Shown here piece after piece: positions 596 through 9,077 of a stretch of 22,434 nucleotides of DNA. The position numbers and the translations under genes are program-made. The notes beneath the pieces were generated by a model. The model was given only the letters and a program-made list of their open reading frames with translations. It had not been told where the DNA came from and ran no database searches. Source of the stretch: a virus; the IMG/VR virus record IMGVR_UViG_3300030329_004099, positions 1 through 22,434 of that record; one strand, written 5' to 3'. Positions within the stretch are counted from its first letter, which is position 1; each line of letters opens with the position of its first letter.

Positions 596-677
596 CTATC
601 ACGCCACGTAATGAAACATGTTGAAATCACTATCACGCCACGTAATTACCCATGTTGACGTGACTATCACGGACCGG
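596..677. repeat. 34-bp iteron-like direct repeats (two full units plus a partial third)
   Basis: CTATCACGCCACGTAAT occurs at 596-612 and again exactly at 630-646. After a 4-nt variable gap each copy is followed by CATGTTGA (617-624, 651-658), and a third unit begins CTATCACGGACC at 664. The period is 34 bp. Two conserved blocks per unit in fixed register suggest a DNA-binding protein contacting successive helical turns, as in iterons or operators. It is not a CRISPR array because no unique spacers separate the units. Confidence 0.7.
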
Positions 678-862: not shown

Positions 863-942
863 TCGTTTCCCTAAGTTCGTTCCTCACTAAGGGAAATGGA
901 GCCAACAAGTTGTCTCCACCATTCGGCTTTCATCCCTGACGC
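863..942 (+). ncRNA. Two-hairpin structured module, copy A
   Basis: Hairpin 1 pairs TTTCCCT (866-872) with AGGGAAA (890-896). Hairpin 2 follows directly: TGGAG (897-901) with CTCCA (914-918), a C/T mismatch, then CAA (903-905) with TTG (910-912), and a CAAG loop. A diverged copy at 2572-2652 keeps both hairpins although the bases differ: C871-G891 becomes G-C, G899-C916 becomes A-T, and A905-T910 becomes G-C. Three paired changes between two copies are strong evidence for a folded RNA or single-stranded DNA. The + strand is my choice and is not proven for this module. Transcript ends are unknown. Confidence 0.6.
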
Positions 943-969
943 ATAAGGGTACCGCTCGCTATGTCACAC

Positions 970-1231
970 CGCTTGCTCTACCGCTTGTCATGCTACTTGC
1001 AGGGCAAGCAGCACGCCAAGCAGCAAGCGTTGTGCCACCGAAGGGCTCGCAAGCACAAGTTCGCTCCTTAGGGTCGCTCACGGGTGTAGAGGGTTCCCAC
1101 GGCTCCCTGTGGGTCGCCGACAGACCACCTCCGGCGGCCGGGCCGCTGGGCAGATACAGCAGGGAACCCCGACCCTGCTCTATCAGCTACGCGGCGGCTT
1201 GTCAGGGCCGCGAAATCGCAGGAGCGGCCCT
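970..1231 (+). ncRNA. Hairpin-dense region, candidate structured RNA (region A)
   Basis: This stretch has no convincing gene but a series of helices. The longest is a 60-nt hairpin, 970-1029: CGCTTGCT with AGCAAGCG, GCTTG with CAAGC, TGCT with AGCA, CTTGC with GCAAG, and a 3-nt loop, 22 pairs in all with small internal loops. Next come TTGTGC/GCACAA (1030-1058), a helix at 1150-1187 (GC, GATA, then AGCAGGG with CCCTGCT, separated by 1x1 mismatches), and AGGGCCGC/GCGGCCCT (1204-1231). Together with the module at 863-942 this could be one ~370-nt RNA. The boundaries and the strand are inferred. Confidence 0.45.
1062..1077. repeat. Short hairpin repeat CGCTCCTTAGGGTCGC, copy 1
   Basis: A 16-bp repeat that can form GCG..TCC-TTA-GGG..CGC. 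The same 16 bases occur at 2287-2302, and 17-bp versions with one extra loop base occur at 2438-2454 and 2664-2680. Looser relatives ending in GGGTCGC lie at 1101-1117 and 2551-2567. All are in the gene-poor region. Confidence 0.65.
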
Positions 1232-1258
1232 TCCTGCGCGTTGGACGGACCGAGGGGA

Positions 1259-1301
1259 TTGACATTTTGTCAAAACTGCGGTGGTTTGTGACATCGTGTC
1301 A
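1259..1301. promoter_or_regulatory. Twin palindromic operator-like sites TGACA-N3-TGTCA
   Basis: TTGACATTTTGTCAA (1259-1273) and TGACATCGTGTCA (1289-1301) are both perfect dyads with the same 5-bp half-site and the same 3-bp gap, 29 bp apart centre to centre. The first contains a TTGACA hexamer that could serve as a -35 element, but I see no good -10 at 17 bp. They lie ~130 bp upstream of the gene at 1429 and could control its transcription. The same half-site is reused at 3077-3121. Confidence 0.6.
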
Positions 1302-1329
1302 AAATGAAACTTTCTCGCCTTTTTTGTGG

Positions 1330-1415
1330 CACCCTGCCCGCAGGGTGAATAAAGGACTCACGTCCGAAGGGGGTAGCCCCCCGGGTCGACGTCAACCATC
1401 ACGGGCCAAAGGCCC
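1330..1415 (+). promoter_or_regulatory. Hairpin-rich leader of the gene at 1429
   Basis: Three short perfect hairpins stand between the operator-like sites and the ribosome binding site: CACCCTG-CCCG-CAGGGTG (1330-1347), GGGGG-TAG-CCCCC (1369-1381) and GGGCC-AAA-GGCCC (1403-1415). The last abuts the ribosome binding site AAGGAGAG (1416-1423). They may stabilise the message or tune translation. The role is inferred. Confidence 0.45.
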
Positions 1416-1428
1416 AAGGAGAGTGCAC

Positions 1429-1947
1429 ATGTCATCATACAAAACTACCCTCAAAACCTACACGGCCGTCTCGGGCGGAAGCGACCTCAACCCTCACGTA
1501 CGCGTCGGACTTCGCCGTAACTGGGTTTTCGCTAACTTCCAAGAGGAAGTCGACGCGCTCATCGAGACGTTGACCGCGCTCAAGGCCGGCCCTGCTTACG
1601 CCCGCCTCCCGCGCAAAGCTGACGAGGCTAGCGCCGAGGACGTAGCCAACGCGCGCGGTACGTCCGGGTTCACGTTTGCCGACCTCGCGAACATGAACGA
1701 GGCCGACGTGGCGAAGCTCATCGCCGCACTGGGTGGCAATGGTGGAACAGAGAAGATGACGAAGGCCAAGCCACAGACGAAGACGCGCACACCGCGCGCG
1801 TTTCGGGTCGGTGACTCCGTCAAGGTGCGTGGCTCGCGTCACGCGTTCAAAGTCACCGCGACCCGCGAGGGTGAGGTTCAGGTCAAGCGCGCCGATGGCG
1901 TCGGGAATCGCCGCTGGTACGCGGCGGGCCGGGTGAGCGCCCGGTAG
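1429..1947 (+). CDS. Hypothetical protein with C-terminal SH3/KOW-like basic domain
   Basis: A 172-residue protein (MSSYKTTLKTYTAV...). The frame is open further upstream, but the ATG at 1429 follows the ribosome binding site AAGGAGAG (1416-1423), and the upstream part would cross the operator-like and hairpin sequences. The N-terminal ~90 residues are mixed helix/strand with no motif I know. Residues ~110-130 form a Lys/Thr-rich linker. The last ~45 residues (FRVGDSVKVRG ... RRWYAAGRV) look like a small beta-barrel of the KOW/SH3/Tudor type, a fold often used to bind RNA or DNA. It is the only convincing gene in 3 kb of noncoding, hairpin-rich DNA and has its own strong terminator, so it is a single-gene unit. 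Binding to the neighbouring RNA or repeats is a guess. Confidence 0.85.
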   Translation: MSSYKTTLKTYTAVSGGSDLNPHVRVGLRRNWVFANFQEEVDALIETLTALKAGPAYARLPRKADEASAEDVANARGTSGFTFADLANMNEADVAKLIAALGGNGGTEKMTKAKPQTKTRTPRAFRVGDSVKVRGSRHAFKVTATREGEVQVKRADGVGNRRWYAAGRVSAR

Positions 1948-1969
1948 CCCGAGGGGCGCGAGCCCCCCG

Positions 1970-2006
1970 CCCCGCTCTGGCTCCGGCTAGAGCGGGGCCT
2001 TTTTTT
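1970..2006 (+). terminator. Strong Rho-independent terminator of the 1429 gene
   Basis: A 9-bp perfect stem, CCCCGCTCT (1970-1978) with AGAGCGGGG (1989-1997), has a 10-nt loop and is followed by CC and seven T (2000-2006). It starts 22 bp after the stop codon. A small extra hairpin, GGGGC-GCGA-GCCCC (1953-1966), with a GNRA-type loop lies just before it. Confidence 0.9.
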
Positions 2007-2073
2007 GTCTAGTGCCAAGCGTCTCCGCGTTTCCGCTTTGCGAGCTACTCCGCGTGCACCGCGCGCGCCCGCT

Positions 2074-2382
2074 CCGCGTGCGACGTCAAGACCTGGCACC
2101 CAGGGACAGCGGCAGAAGTCAAAGCCGCCGCGATACCTGGTCCCGCGTCCTTGGGTTCGGTCTTGACTCACTGCGCGGTGGACGCCTCGTAGGTCGCATG
2201 CGCGGAACCGCTCCACCGCGAGAGCGCTCGCGAGAGCGCTCGCTGGGGGGCAAGCCCCCCAGACCCCCCAATCGCAGATGGTACCGCGCTCCTTAGGGTC
2301 GCGCATGGGATCGCAGATGGTTGTCGTAGGGGGAGGACCCCCTGAATACCCCCCTTACATCTTGCCGCTTACGCGGGGTATT
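2074..2382 (+). ncRNA. Candidate large structured RNA (region B)
   Basis: Starting about 70 nt after the terminator, nearly every base can join a helix. Nested domain: GTCAAGACC (2085-2093) with GGTCTTGAC (2159-2167), ACCCAGGGAC (2098-2107) with GTCCTTGGGT (2147-2156), and GCGGC (2109-2113) with GCCGC (2124-2128). Then CGCGGTGGA (2174-2182) with TCCACCGCG (2212-2220); GAGCGCTC-GCGA-GAGCGCTC (2222-2241, a GNRA loop); CTGGGGGG-CAAG-CCCCCCAG (2243-2262); AGGGGG-AGGA-CCCCCT (2328-2343); and AATACCCC (2345-2352) with GGGGTATT (2375-2382). The second helix contains one G-T pair, which is a G-U wobble only in a + strand transcript. It may continue into the module at 2572. No known RNA family is recognised. 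Confidence 0.45.
2287..2302. repeat. Short hairpin repeat CGCTCCTTAGGGTCGC, copy 2
   Basis: Identical over all 16 bases to the copy at 1062-1077. It is bracketed by two copies of ATCGCAGATGGT (2271-2282 and 2310-2321). Confidence 0.65.
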
Positions 2383-2437
2383 GTACCAGCTCGCAAGCTC
2401 GCAGATACGTTCGCCGTTTAGAAGGCTCACGTGACCG

Positions 2438-2454
2438 CGCTCCTTAAGGGTCGC
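2438..2454. repeat. Short hairpin repeat, copy 3 (CGCTCCTTAAGGGTCGC)
   Basis: Same as the 16-bp repeat with one extra A in the loop. A loop-length change with unchanged arms fits a hairpin under selection, or slippage in the loop. Confidence 0.6.
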
Positions 2455-2571
2455 GCAACCACTGCCAAAGCGTCACCGTCGCACCACCTTGCCGCGTCAG
2501 CCGTAGCCCGTGGTGTTGCTGCGTAGGCCGAAGCGTGTTGAGCTGGGCGTCACCCGCAAGGGGTCGCGCTC

Positions 2572-2652
2572 TCGTTTCCGTAAGGCTCGTTCCTCGCCAA
2601 CGGAAATGAAGCCAGCAAGCTGTCTTCACCAGAAGGCTTCCATCGCTGACGC
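2572..2652 (+). ncRNA. Two-hairpin structured module, copy B
   Basis: Diverged copy of 863-942. Hairpin 1: TTTCCGT (2575-2581) with ACGGAAA (2600-2606). Hairpin 2: TGAAG (2607-2611) with CTTCA (2624-2628), and CAG (2613-2615) with CTG (2620-2622) around a CAAG loop. The loop and the segment joining the hairpins are unchanged between copies, while three stem pairs changed on both sides. The conserved tail after hairpin 2 reads GGCTT then CATCnCTGACGC in both copies. A copy-4 short hairpin repeat follows at 2664. Confidence 0.6.
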
Positions 2653-2822: not shown

Positions 2823-2996
2823 CCGGGAGGACGGGTAAACACGGAACCGGGGAGACGAAGGATGCCGCATAATTCTCGCGCTGACAACAAAGCAGAAGGC
2901 TTCCCCCCTTTTTGACCCTTTGACTTTTTAAATAGGGGGACCCGCTCAACACGACGTCAATTTTTCGGTTTTGTGCATATAAGGGGTGTAGAGGGC

Positions 2997-3044
2997 GGGG
3001 AGGGGACAAAACCATTTTTCTGGAGGCTTTTTGTCCCCCTCTCC
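2997..3044. terminator. Long inverted repeat with flanking A and T runs, possible bidirectional terminator
   Basis: GAGGGGACAAAA (3000-3011) pairs with TTTTTGTCCCCCTC (3028-3041) with a one-base bulge, around a 16-nt loop. Because A- and T-runs are part of the stem, the hairpin could stop transcripts from either side. It separates the hairpin-rich region from the proposed origin. The function is inferred. Confidence 0.4.
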
Positions 3045-3076: not shown

Positions 3077-3121
3077 TGACATTTCGTGACATTTGGAGAC
3101 TTAGATGTCAAGGAGATGTCG
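3077..3121. promoter_or_regulatory. Nested inverted TGACAT half-sites
   Basis: TGACAT at 3077-3082 and 3087-3092 faces ATGTCA at 3105-3110 and ATGTCG at 3116-3121, forming two nested dyads. The half-site equals that of the twin operators at 1259-1301, so one regulator could bind both places and tie the 1429 gene to the replication block. Confidence 0.5.
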
Positions 3122-3123
3122 AT

Positions 3124-3408
3124 TTGTAGTTTTGTAGTCGGTTTGTAGTTTTTTGTAGTCTAAATTATTGTAGGTAGAACCTTGGTTTTCGGAAAAAAAC
3201 TACAAAACTACTAAAAAAGTCAGCATTTCAGCCTCTTACGTTAAAAAAGCCGTTTTAAAAATCCCGAATATTTAAAACGCCCTTTTGGGACGTATACGCT
3301 CGTTATACGGTTTTTTTTGTAGTTTTGTAGTTTTTCGGCGGTTCCGCAGCTTCAAGCAGGGCTTTGACCCACTACGAGTTTGTAGTTTTTTGTAGTTTCG
3401 TTTGTAGT
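3124..3408. other. Putative replication origin with TTGTAGT iterons
   Basis: TTGTAGT occurs exactly nine times on the + strand (starting at 3124, 3132, 3143, 3153, 3317, 3325, 3380, 3390 and 3402) and once inverted (ACTACAA, 3199-3205), plus degenerate copies at 3168, 3207 and 3371. Spacings inside groups are 8-12 bp, near one helical turn. The groups flank an AT-rich centre with a 9-bp perfect inverted repeat, CGTTTTAAA (3251-3259) and TTTAAAACG (3271-3279). Iteron groups around an AT-rich core beside a primase-helicase gene is the arrangement known from P4-type origins. The repeats are seen; origin function is inferred. Confidence 0.6.
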
Positions 3409-3444
3409 TTTAGATCGCGAACTTCGCAGCAGCAGCGGCAAGGG

Positions 3445-3504
3445 CTTCTGCTGCCTCCTTGACAGGCTCTGTCGCGTTTGTTACCTGTTGTCGCAGAAGG
3501 AGGC
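3445..3504 (+). promoter_or_regulatory. Hairpin that would hide the ribosome binding site of the HTH gene
   Basis: GCCTCCTT (3453-3460) is perfectly complementary to AAGGAGGC (3497-3504), the ribosome binding site of the gene at 3508, and ACAGG/CCTGT extends the stem inward. A rival pairing, CTTCTGC (3445-3451) with GCAGAAG (3493-3499), uses part of the same site. A TTGACA at 3459-3464 is a possible -35, but the -10 is poor. This suggests translational control of the HTH protein and perhaps, through coupling, of the replicase. Confidence 0.45.
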
Positions 3505-3507
3505 AAA

Positions 3508-3732
3508 ATGAGCGAAACACTCGACGGGACACTCTACTCGATCGCAGAAGTCGCACGTTTTTTAAACGTGAGTAAGCGGACAGTTCAGCGTATGGTTAAG
3601 AGCGGAAAGCTAGAAGCCTTTGACATTGGAGGCCAGCGCCGGATTGCTCCGCTCTCTTTGGAGAGGATGTTACGAGGCAACAAACCGGAAGACCTTCAGG
3701 CGACTTCGCCGAATCAATTCGACCTGTTTTAG
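3508..3732 (+). CDS. Small helix-turn-helix protein (excisionase/MerR-like fold) with C-terminal clamp-binding-like motif
   Basis: A 74-residue protein. I chose the ATG at 3508 because of AAGGAGG at 3497-3503; the frame could also open at a TTG at 3478. Residues 9-58 (LYSIAEVARFLNVSKRTV...) form the winged helix-turn-helix common to the excisionase/HTH_17 family: the SIAEVARFLNVSKRTVQRMV turn, then KSGKLEAFDIGGQRRI as the wing. The C-terminus ends in Q-F-D-L-F (3715-3729), close to the bacterial sliding-clamp-binding consensus QL(S/D)LF. It lies directly downstream of the TTGTAGT repeats and 8 bp before the replicase. With no integrase in view it is more likely an origin-binding or regulatory protein than an excisionase. 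Fold call firm, role inferred. Confidence 0.88.
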   Translation: MSETLDGTLYSIAEVARFLNVSKRTVQRMVKSGKLEAFDIGGQRRIAPLSLERMLRGNKPEDLQATSPNQFDLF

Positions 3733-3740
3733 AGGGGAGC

Positions 3741-6200
3741 ATGGAAATCAAGGCAGATTACACCGAGATTCACTCGGCCATACGCACTATTGCCGAAAAT
3801 GGGCAGATTATCGAGCTACGCGCGCTTCAAGTGCCCAGTGCGGACGGATTTCGGCGCACGGTCACCGGATTTTTCGACGATTTGGAGCTTTTTGCCCAAG
3901 CAGCCGTCAAATTGTCCGACGCAGGAGCCAAAGGCGTCTACTTTACGCCGAATCCGGTGAAATCTATTCCGAAAACTATGCCCCGGAACGAATTGCGCCC
4001 CGCTACGCGTGGTTCCGCCACTACGGACGCCGATATTGAGCGCGTAAACTGGCTTTTGGTGGACATTGACCCCTGCCGCCCCTCCGGAGAGGCCGCAAGT
4101 GCGTCAGAAAAGGCCGCAGCAGAGCGTGTTTGCGGTCATGTGGCCAAGTACCTACAAGGACTCGGCTGGCCGAACCCTCTTATCGGCGATTCTGGGAACG
4201 GGTACCACCTCATGTACCGTGTTGAGGGGGGAACCACGGAAACAAATAGGGAAATTTTGGACACGCTGGCCTTCCTCTTCAATACGAACGAGGCGAAGGT
4301 GGACCAGCTTGTCTTCAACCCTAGCCGTATCTGGAAGGTGTACGGGACGTGGCCTCGCAAAGGAGACAACAGTGCTGAAAGACCTTATCGCAAAGCTGCT
4401 CTGCTCAATCCTACGCAGGTTCTTGTACCCGTTTCAAAGCAGCAGCAATCCGCCTTCGCAAACGCGTTGCCGATGGATGGTGAAGGTGACGCCGGGAAAT
4501 CGTCCGAGCTAGACATCTGGGTCAACGAGCATTTCCCGCAGGCCGGAGAGGCCGAGCCTTGGGCGGGACGCGGACGGCGCTGGGTATTCCCCGTCTGTCC
4601 GTGGGACTCAAGCCATACCGACCGTAGCGCGTACATCGTGCAGTTCACCAGCGGTGCGATTGCAGCCGGTTGTCTGCATGAGTCCTGCGACGGCCATGGC
4701 AAGGATGACGAGGGCAAGGCTCTCGGCTGGAAGCGACTTCAGAAGTTGGCTGGGACTCCGTTCAAGCCGAGCGGCTCCAGTCAGCCAGTCGCGACGACCG
4801 CTTCCACGGGTGCGACGCCGAACCTTACCGACTTGGGTAACGCGAAGAGAATGATTCGTAGTTTTCAAAATGTACTCCTTTACTGTCCCACTCATGGATC
4901 GTGGTACGTGTACGATGACTTCCGCTGGAAGCGCGATATGGACGGGGCGGTAGCGAGGTACGCTAAGGCCACTGTTGCCGGTATTTTTGACGAAGCGGCG
5001 ACCGAAACAGATCAAGGTCGCCAAACAAGTCTTCGACGTCATGCCCTCCGTAGCGAAAGCGCCCGTGCTCTTAGCTCGATGGTGAGCCTTGCGTCAACTG
5101 AAATTGAGGTAGCAATTCAGTCCGACAGACTCGACGCCGACCCGTGGGTCTTCAATGCCCAGAATGGAACTCTGGATTTGCGGACGGGTAGGTTGAGCGA
5201 CCACGACCGCACTGACTACATCACGAAGATCAGCAACGTCGCTTACGACCCGACTGCCGAGTGCCCCCTCTGGGATGAGTTTCTCGATTACGCTATGGAA
5301 GGGGACGAAGAAGTCGTTAACTTCATCCATCGTTTCTTCGGCTATTGCCTTACCGGATTGGTGACGGAGCAGGTACTTCTCTTTATGGAAGGGACCGGCA
5401 GCAACGGTAAGACGACCGCACTGCTTATGATCATGCACGTGCTTGGCGACTACGGTATCCAAGGCGCACCCGGACTCCTGCTCGCGAAGAAGGGCGAGTC
5501 ACATCCGACCGAGGTCGCTGACTTGGAGGGCGCACGGTTTTGCGCGAACTCCGAGGTGGAGAAGGGTAAGCCCTTCGCGGAGGCCCTGATTAAGCAGCTT
5601 ACCGGGTCCGACCCCATCAAGGCCCGCCGGATGCGGAAGGACTTTTGGCAGTTTGAGCCTACACATAAACTTTGTATCGCTGCGAACCACCGTCCCATCA
5701 TTAAAGGGAACGACGAAGGTATCTGGCGGCGTGTTCTGCGTATTCCGTGGAACAAGGCGATCCCAGCGCACAAGAAAGACCCCTTCTTTCTGGACAAACT
5801 GAAGCAGGAAGCCCCCGGAATCCTCCGAAAACTGGTCGAAGGGTGCCTAGAATGGCAAAAACATGGCCTAAACCCGCCTGAAAAGGTCACTTTGGCGACC
5901 GAGGCATATCGGGAAGAAATGGACGTTTTGTCCGATTTTATGGAAGAATTGTGCATTATTGGGGAGTCCCAGCGCATCGGACAGAAGCAATTGTACCTTG
6001 CCTACGTCGAATGGTGTGAAGAACTCAAGCAGAAGCCCCAGAACTACCGGCTTTTCAACCGCCAGCTAAAGGAGCGGGACTACAAGGTCATCGTTTCGAC
6101 CATCGGCGGCGTTGCAACCCGTGTCTGGTCAGGCATCTCGCTTCGCAGGGACCCTGCTCGCATGACGGGATTCATGCAGATGCGAGTAGCCGATGCCTGA
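3741..6200 (+). CDS. Phage/plasmid primase-helicase (AEP primase + SF3 helicase, P4 type)
   Basis: An 819-residue replicase. The N-terminal third is an archaeo-eukaryotic primase: the DxD metal ligands are in LLVDIDP (D108, D110), and SGNGYH (151-156) is the usual next motif with its His. Residues ~286-316 hold Cys/His residues (C286, H292, C311, C316) that may bind zinc. The second half is a D5/P4-type superfamily 3 helicase: Walker A GTGSNGKTT (551-559), Walker B region around DLEGAR and SEVE (594-607), sensor Asn in CIAANHRP (N649), and arginine pair R663/R664. Such proteins make primers and unwind DNA at the phage origin. The start at 3741 follows GAGGGGAG. The TTGTAGT repeats upstream are its likely target. 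The next gene overlaps its stop by 8 bp. Confidence 0.95.
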   Translation: MEIKADYTEIHSAIRTIAENGQIIELRALQVPSADGFRRTVTGFFDDLELFAQAAVKLSDAGAKGVYFTPNPVKSIPKTMPRNELRPATRGSATTDADIERVNWLLVDIDPCRPSGEAASASEKAAAERVCGHVAKYLQGLGWPNPLIGDSGNGYHLMYRVEGGTTETNREILDTLAFLFNTNEAKVDQLVFNPSRIWKVYGTWPRKGDNSAERPYRKAALLNPTQVLVPVSKQQQSAFANALPMDGEGDAGKSSELDIWVNEHFPQAGEAEPWAGRGRRWVFPVCPWDSSHTDRSAYIVQFTSGAIAAGCLHESCDGHGKDDEGKALGWKRLQKLAGTPFKPSGSSQPVATTASTGATPNLTDLGNAKRMIRSFQNVLLYCPTHGSWYVYDDFRWKRDMDGAVARYAKATVAGIFDEAATETDQGRQTSLRRHALRSESARALSSMVSLASTEIEVAIQSDRLDADPWVFNAQNGTLDLRTGRLSDHDRTDYITKISNVAYDPTAECPLWDEFLDYAMEGDEEVVNFIHRFFGYCLTGLVTEQVLLFMEGTGSNGKTTALLMIMHVLGDYGIQGAPGLLLAKKGESHPTEVADLEGARFCANSEVEKGKPFAEALIKQLTGSDPIKARRMRKDFWQFEPTHKLCIAANHRPIIKGNDEGIWRRVLRIPWNKAIPAHKKDPFFLDKLKQEAPGILRKLVEGCLEWQKHGLNPPEKVTLATEAYREEMDVLSDFMEELCIIGESQRIGQKQLYLAYVEWCEELKQKPQNYRLFNRQLKERDYKVIVSTIGGVATRVWSGISLRRDPARMTGFMQMRVADA

Positions 6201-8324: not shown

Positions 8325-9077
8325 ATGGCAAGTAAGAGAGGCATCGACAATCCTTATGGGAGTTTGACAGACTACCCCGAACCTGACCCCTTTGAGTTTG
8401 ACCCAACGAAACTCTCTCCTGAAGAGCAGAAAAAGGCATTCAGCAAAAGCGCAGACGTTGAAGACGCGTTTGAGGGGAAGAAGCTCACAGACCTTGAGGA
8501 GTGGGATAAGAAGTCGAAGGCGGGAGGCAAAACACAGGGTGTGGCTAAAAAGGCCCCCCGTCAGTTGATCCCCAGATCTACAGTACAGACTCCTTATGGA
8601 ATACCTCAAAGTCAACTCAATAAGATGTCCCCCGGAATGTACCGGCAACTTCTGGGGATGGCGTCCCAAGAAGGGGCTATGCGTACTCCTCCGAGCGCAA
8701 TGCAACGGCTAGGCCAAGGTATCGTACACGGTCTTGGGGGTCCCGGTGTGAGGAATATGGCTGCCGCATCAGGAAAAGCTGCTGGTCGAGTTTTCCCACC
8801 GGCTGCCCTCGCACTCGCCACACGCGACATCTACGAGGGCGTTCAAGAGCCCGGCTTTGTCGTTGGCATGAGGCAGTTGCTTGGCGGCGAGGAAGCGGCG
8901 TACAATGCGTGGGCGGCGCAGCAAGCTGAAGAGGGTATTGAAGTCCCTTCTTACGAAGAATTCAAAGCGGCACAAGCCGCGATGGAAGCCGGAGAGATGC
9001 CCGATACCCGTGAGGTAGCAAGGAATGCACTGGCCCCGCGCTACGAGCAAGAGATGGGTCCGGAAGACATGGAGTAA
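8325..9077 (+). CDS. Unknown protein with N-terminal KRGIDNPYG motif
   Basis: A 250-residue protein with ribosome binding site in GGAGTAAATC just before the ATG. It begins MASKRGIDNPYG, and the next gene (HNH) begins MSNKRGIDNPYG with the same 13-nt lead-in GGAGTAAATCATG. The rest has acidic, Pro-rich stretches (20-45), a Lys-rich patch (~60-80), a Gly/Ala-rich segment (~130-165) and a helical C-terminus with AAYNAWAAQQ (~190). The YNAW string recurs in the protein encoded at 9343. I do not recognise a family. The shared N-terminus may be a tag for targeting or packaging together with the nuclease. Confidence 0.85.
   Translation: MASKRGIDNPYGSLTDYPEPDPFEFDPTKLSPEEQKKAFSKSADVEDAFEGKKLTDLEEWDKKSKAGGKTQGVAKKAPRQLIPRSTVQTPYGIPQSQLNKMSPGMYRQLLGMASQEGAMRTPPSAMQRLGQGIVHGLGGPGVRNMAAASGKAAGRVFPPAALALATRDIYEGVQEPGFVVGMRQLLGGEEAAYNAWAAQQAEEGIEVPSYEEFKAAQAAMEAGEMPDTREVARNALAPRYEQEMGPEDME

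Follow-up and report, generated by a model that had tools for sequence, protein, structure and literature searches.

Two diverged copies of a two-hairpin module lie upstream of the replication genes in the 22,434-base IMG/VR record analyzed here in full (hereafter the window), which derives from a tailed phage and includes genes for HTH_17, D5-type primase-helicase, terminase, portal, and head proteins. What such a module is, and in which molecule it folds, are the questions that this locus raises. A sequence-only reading had placed the modules at 863-942 and 2572-2652 with three compensatory changes between them. The module proved real, with its extent and the number of its changes understated: copy A covers 845-944, copy B covers 2545-2654, and six pairs are exchanged.

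Each copy consists of a closing stem and two hairpins, which are proposed to fold on the minus strand (letters are given here for the plus strand), and each is matched by covariance models R1 and R2. The closing stem (GCGTC/GACGC; 847-851/938-942 in copy A and 2547-2551/2648-2652 in copy B) is invariant between the two copies and covaries in homologs. Hairpin 1 of copy A (864-898) has a stem at 864-871/891-898 and an inner stem at 874-876/886-888, which closes a nine-nucleotide loop, TCGTTCCTC (877-885), that is unchanged in copy B, where the hairpin occupies 2573-2608. Three compensatory pairs fall within hairpin 1. Hairpin 2 (899-916 in copy A and 2609-2626 in copy B) contributes two more, and its C/T mismatch and CAAG loop are identical in both copies, as the sequence-only reading had noted; among homologs, 100% of its cells are paired, and it covaries. 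Copy B has an extra small hairpin at 2552-2564.

Six of the 25 modeled pairs differ between copies A and B, all changed on both sides with pairing kept, and none is broken. All three pairs named earlier are among them (C871-G891 to G2580-C2601, G899-C916 to A2609-T2626, and A905-T910 to G2615-C2620, from copy A to copy B). Two others lie in the inner stem of hairpin 1, namely A874-T888 to G2584-C2598 (with the alignment gap shifted by one base) and T876-A886 to C2586-G2596, and the last is G858-C935 to C2567-G2645. Refolding of the consensus gave five compensatory pairs and none broken; the sixth was added by inspection and stands outside that count. No more than four were obtained in the controls, with none of 2000 column shuffles and none of 2000 simulated copies (the same substitutions at random places) reaching five, and the consensus fold was recomputed for every shuffle and simulated copy to allow for a structure chosen on the same sequences. 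Neither strand has a frame that stays open through both copies, and a 1-nt indel lies inside the module, in agreement with the earlier claim that no coding frame explains the changes.

Sequences flanking copy A do not align with those flanking copy B. The copies bracket a single credible gene, again in agreement with the sequence-only reading: it lies on the plus strand at 1429-1947, has a terminator downstream (1969-1998), and encodes 172 amino acids without a Pfam family, for which an AlphaFold model (pLDDT 49.5) was unusable. Gene 384-971 of the phage locus L002 was considered as a homolog, and homology was not established on comparison. Upstream of the gene at 1429-1947 are two operator-like TGACA-NNN-TGTCA palindromes (window positions 1260-1272 and 1289-1301). 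The motif GCTCC-N3..4-GGGTCGC occurs in five same-strand copies (window positions 1063, 1102, 2288, 2439, and 2665), where the chance expectation is 0.02; the plasmid copies of the element described below are followed by a hairpin (GCATCCTTATCAGGATGC) that resembles these copies in look. Window positions 596-671 hold a 34-bp tandem repeat beginning CTATCACGCCACG, plus a third CTATCACG, an octamer also found at position 1598 of L002, 80 nt before the L002 origin box.

As the sequence-only reading had proposed, a covariance model was built from the two copies, and it led to homologs in plasmids as well as in a microvirus and in tailed phages. This model, R1, was made from copies A and B alone. 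Its best score in 371 kb of pattern-chosen control loci was 14.7 bits, and in enterobacterial conjugative plasmids it reached 36-48 bits within the leading region. The first plasmid lead was a weak blastn match (E 0.03) to two loci of F-type conjugative plasmids (L068 and L069). It could have passed for chance, but its neighborhood, non-coding DNA between N-6 DNA methylase and antirestriction genes, and its R1 values of 36.0 and 39.3 bits showed it to be real. When a plasmid copy served as the BLAST query, 4220 of 72,556 plasmid records gave matches, at 8385 places in all, with at least 80% of the query covered in 3923 records; among the matches listed, a record most often has two or three copies. 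Plasmid F carries copies at 58091-58174 and 63479-63562 (R1, 47.7 and 41.4 bits), with ssb and the genes at 64032 and 64438, respectively, lying downstream, and a copy in a Pseudomonas plasmid (19.5 bits) precedes radC. Because the plasmid copies carry GTCGTGAACGG in place of the long hairpin 1 of the phage, this enlarged hairpin is a phage elaboration, and its covariation is that of the two window copies only.

Neither patterns derived from the phage letters, searched in IMG/VR and GTDB, nor blastn of these letters against phages produced a convincing direct match, and the pattern matches failed the covariance model. R1 detected the element in the tailed Sphingopyxis phage VSN-002 (34.8 bits, with an inverted second copy at 20.7), in Microcystis phage Mvi-Yong1342-1 (20.4 bits, with an inverted one at 14.3), and in the ssDNA Gokushovirus WZ-2015a (28.4 bits), in which it lies between VP2 and VP1. 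A bajarodmic microvirus scored 23.1 bits; it was weaker with model R2 (E 0.03) and gave no match in one further search. It is the one record among weak microvirus blastn matches that proved related by R1. A Serratia phage match had no support from the covariance model, and L002 1022-1105 and L014 3404-3413, which are similar in look, scored at background level. In two tailed phages, the elements form inverted pairs (L079 1479-1561 on the plus and 1934-2019 on the minus strand; L080 1480-1559 on the plus and 2106-2189 on the minus strand), 0.4-0.5 kb apart and just within both ends of an annotated hypothetical gene. These pairs adjoin recombination genes (NinB, YqaJ, and Rad52) and resemble single-strand initiation sites that occur as a pair, one on each strand.

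Covariation in homologous copies was the second check that had been proposed. The family alignment holds 16 matches (14 distinct sequences), which were fitted to the model and hence lean towards its structure. Among the 14 distinct sequences, 98.1% of cells are paired and eight pairs have double changes, with 17 doubly changed cells against four one-sided ones (all G-U). None of 500 shuffles reached any of five measures, and sliding the partners destroyed the signal. An independent MAFFT alignment also made visible the replacement of GCGTC/GACGC by GCGGC/GCCGC, GCGAC/GTCGC, and GCGCT/AGCGC, and that of CAG/CTG by CGG/CCG. At the level of sequence comparison, these alignments show that the fold (closing stem, hairpin-1 arm, and hairpin 2) has been kept by compensatory change in the plasmid, microvirus, and tailed-phage copies, and the element is a member of a folded-DNA family of mobile genetic elements. 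Searched against Rfam 15, neither the phage module nor the plasmid loci reached any family at curated score. The statement that no known RNA family is recognizable thus stands for Rfam, and the element itself is common in conjugative plasmids and not confined to this phage.

The carriers indicate which strand is likely to fold. The leading region of plasmid F enters the recipient first, and by annotation its leading genes are read on the plus strand of the module. Since the leading genes and the module share a strand in the region that is first in, the transferred F strand is the minus strand of the module. Genes of both microviruses are read on the module's minus strand, opposite to the module, and the virion strand is therefore the minus strand too. 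Being transferred in F and packaged in microviruses, the minus strand as ssDNA is the probable working form. With DNA parameters, 20 of 21 copies had their lower folding energy on the minus strand, and hairpin 2 in the window came at a cost of 0.0 kcal/mol on the minus strand as DNA. Wobble intermediates are few in the family, which fits DNA. Several agreeing lines thus make a single-stranded-DNA element rather than a plus-strand RNA most likely, and it is probably in the single-stranded state of the DNA that the element acts. The sequence-only reading had proposed a functional folded RNA (or single-stranded DNA): the folded nucleic acid is borne out by the copies and homologs, and its RNA lead gives way to ssDNA of the minus strand. 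A plus-strand RNA reading that preceded the homologs was dropped.

Single-stranded promoters are known next to the plasmid F copies. Two such promoters, Frpo2 ahead of ssb and Frpo1 ahead of ygeA/ygeB, are 92% identical and ~5 kb apart (PMC9849209). Frpo/ssi sequences work on single-stranded plasmid DNA (PMC7690428), and host RNA polymerase starts RNA there for early gene expression and complementary-strand priming (PMC7690428, PMC11541004). The two F blocks that hold the module are 89% identical over 559 columns, and the positions of the F copies fit the Frpo2 and Frpo1 blocks. The published Frpo fragment is 328 bp long. By our reading of the F sequence, a separate long promoter-like hairpin follows the module after a few hundred bases and is nearer the gene. 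Blastn of the phage region against the rest of the F block beyond the module gave no match, and ColIb-P9, which has known ssi promoters, had no R2 match in 18000-93399, including ssb, psiB, and ardA. Because F has this separate hairpin, only the module is common to the phage, and ColIb-P9 is without it, the module is probably not the Frpo promoter itself. The Frpo1 and Frpo2 blocks are like the phage in having a homologous module with several copies per element; the module has the same orientation to downstream genes and lies on DNA that is single-stranded at entry. The phage differs from them in being double-stranded and in its enlarged hairpin 1, and the rest of the block is not common to it.

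Other structured elements offer more distant parallels. The complementary-strand origins of microviruses (G4-type and the phiX174 primosome site) are also intergenic hairpins on virion DNA, and the model had no match in these origin regions (phiX174 2200-2500 and G4 3700-4200). The pRN1 stem-loop origin is a structured DNA of ~100 nt close to a primase-helicase gene, with its fold kept (PMC4234260), and is alike in that size and setting. It is unlike the modules in being one long stem-loop that lies 3' of the replication gene and is common to relatives, whereas the modules lie upstream and are lacking in 12 relatives; a pRN1-type origin was favored before the plasmid homologs were found and is now an analogy only. 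The GOLLD and ROOL phage RNAs are structured non-coding phage elements too, but they are much larger, and the module has no Rfam match.

In 12 related phages, the order upstream of the primase is a CTCAACAYGA box, 660-790 nt before the primase, then an AT-rich part of 400-540 bp with phage-specific iteron-like repeats, an HTH gene, and the primase-helicase. In the window, the CTCAACACGA box (2945-2954, plus strand) forms the left edge of this conserved origin-like region, which we infer to be a replication origin; an AT-rich stretch with iteron-like AACTACAAA repeats follows at 3120-3412, and the HTH_17 and D5/SF3 primase-helicase genes occupy 3478-6200 on the plus strand. The two modules lie left of the box, 0.3 and 2.0 kb from the origin-like region. 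Since no module was found in the 12 relatives, it is an accessory feature of the window phage, which may have come from a plasmid or from a different phage. Around the box, ~108 nt of non-coding DNA (window 2933-3043 and L002 1665-1775) are near-identical in two phages whose coding DNA is ~75% identical; this segment includes the box and a long hairpin and has no match in the phage collection. Between window 3120-3412 and the same place in L002 and L004-L014, the repeat 9-mer varies from phage to phage (AACTACAAA, AACCACAAA, TGTAACCAA, TCGTCTACA, and GCGTAGACA), and position and AT-richness are constant. A 46-nt hairpin left of the origin box in two phages (L006 691-735 and L014 3529-3573) is 91% identical, with one compensatory pair, within otherwise unalignable non-coding DNA. 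L015 5348-5471 holds a 58-nt unit twice, each a near-perfect hairpin (AAGTTGCGTCGCACGCAACTT family).

Because the carriers share ssDNA stages or replication and recombination neighborhoods, our best guess for function is a candidate single-strand initiation (priming) site beside the phage origin-like region, a proposal drawn from sequence analysis that we consider about evenly balanced between right and wrong. The module would fold on exposed single-stranded DNA, the minus strand of the window, and from this fold a primase, an RNA polymerase, or a primosome protein, encoded by the host or by the element, would begin a complementary-strand primer. For a fork moving leftward from the origin-like region, the minus strand would be the lagging-strand template, and the copies could prime that strand. 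One G-T pair kept in both copy A and copy B is a mismatch in DNA and counts against priming, as do the lack of matches in the phiX174 and G4 origin regions and in ColIb-P9 and the absence of the module from the 12 relatives.

The same family and strand evidence would serve an ssDNA site with another role, such as that of a site recognized by a recombinase, a relaxase-type protein, or an entry protein, of an SSB-resistant structure, or of a packaging signal. The inverted pairs beside recombination genes and the copy upstream of radC speak for such a role, but the integron attC cores RYYYAAC and GTTRRRY are absent from the module and no protein gene adjoining the element is common to all carriers, and we regard it as unlikely, if worth keeping in view. 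Somewhat more doubtful is the reading that either strand gives rise to a structured RNA and that, in the phage and the plasmids, this RNA is a regulator or binds protein. Covariation is typical of RNA, the pair noted above would be a G-U kept in both window copies, and unpaired letters are conserved; however, hairpin 2 of copy B as plus-strand RNA lies 5.8 kcal/mol above the minimum, the plus strand is antisense to all genes in the microviruses, one-sided changes are few beside the double ones, and the absence of any sigma-70-like promoter or site at or near the modules adds to that of an Rfam match. A dispersed repeat or double-stranded dyad operator that is carried along by mobile elements and does nothing as a single strand would account for the several copies per plasmid, but an operator or a neutral repeat would not be expected to have three stems, nested or side by side, whose loops and mismatch are fixed, and covariation spans very different elements, which makes this improbable. 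Chance resemblance is refuted by the homologs, as well as by the shuffle controls and the family covariation, and has practically no likelihood left.

The locus is a known kind of region in a new carrier and a new form: a probable ssDNA element of the plasmid leading-region type, of which this tailed phage has two enlarged copies. A phage structure that had seemed to be an orphan is now connected with a conserved block next to the single-stranded promoters of F-like plasmids, whose leading region is now studied for the anti-defense genes switched on there as plasmid DNA enters the cell. The element has no Rfam family despite BLAST matches in thousands of plasmid records. Tentatively, and at slightly below even likelihood, one ssDNA fold may serve as an exchangeable priming or entry signal of conjugative plasmids, microviruses, and tailed phages, with phage versions having a new hairpin and direct or inverted pairs. 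The same fold in microvirus virion DNA and by the origin-like region of a tailed phage points to a function that is tied to single-stranded DNA, can be separated from the Frpo promoter, and lends itself to tests with simple replicons.
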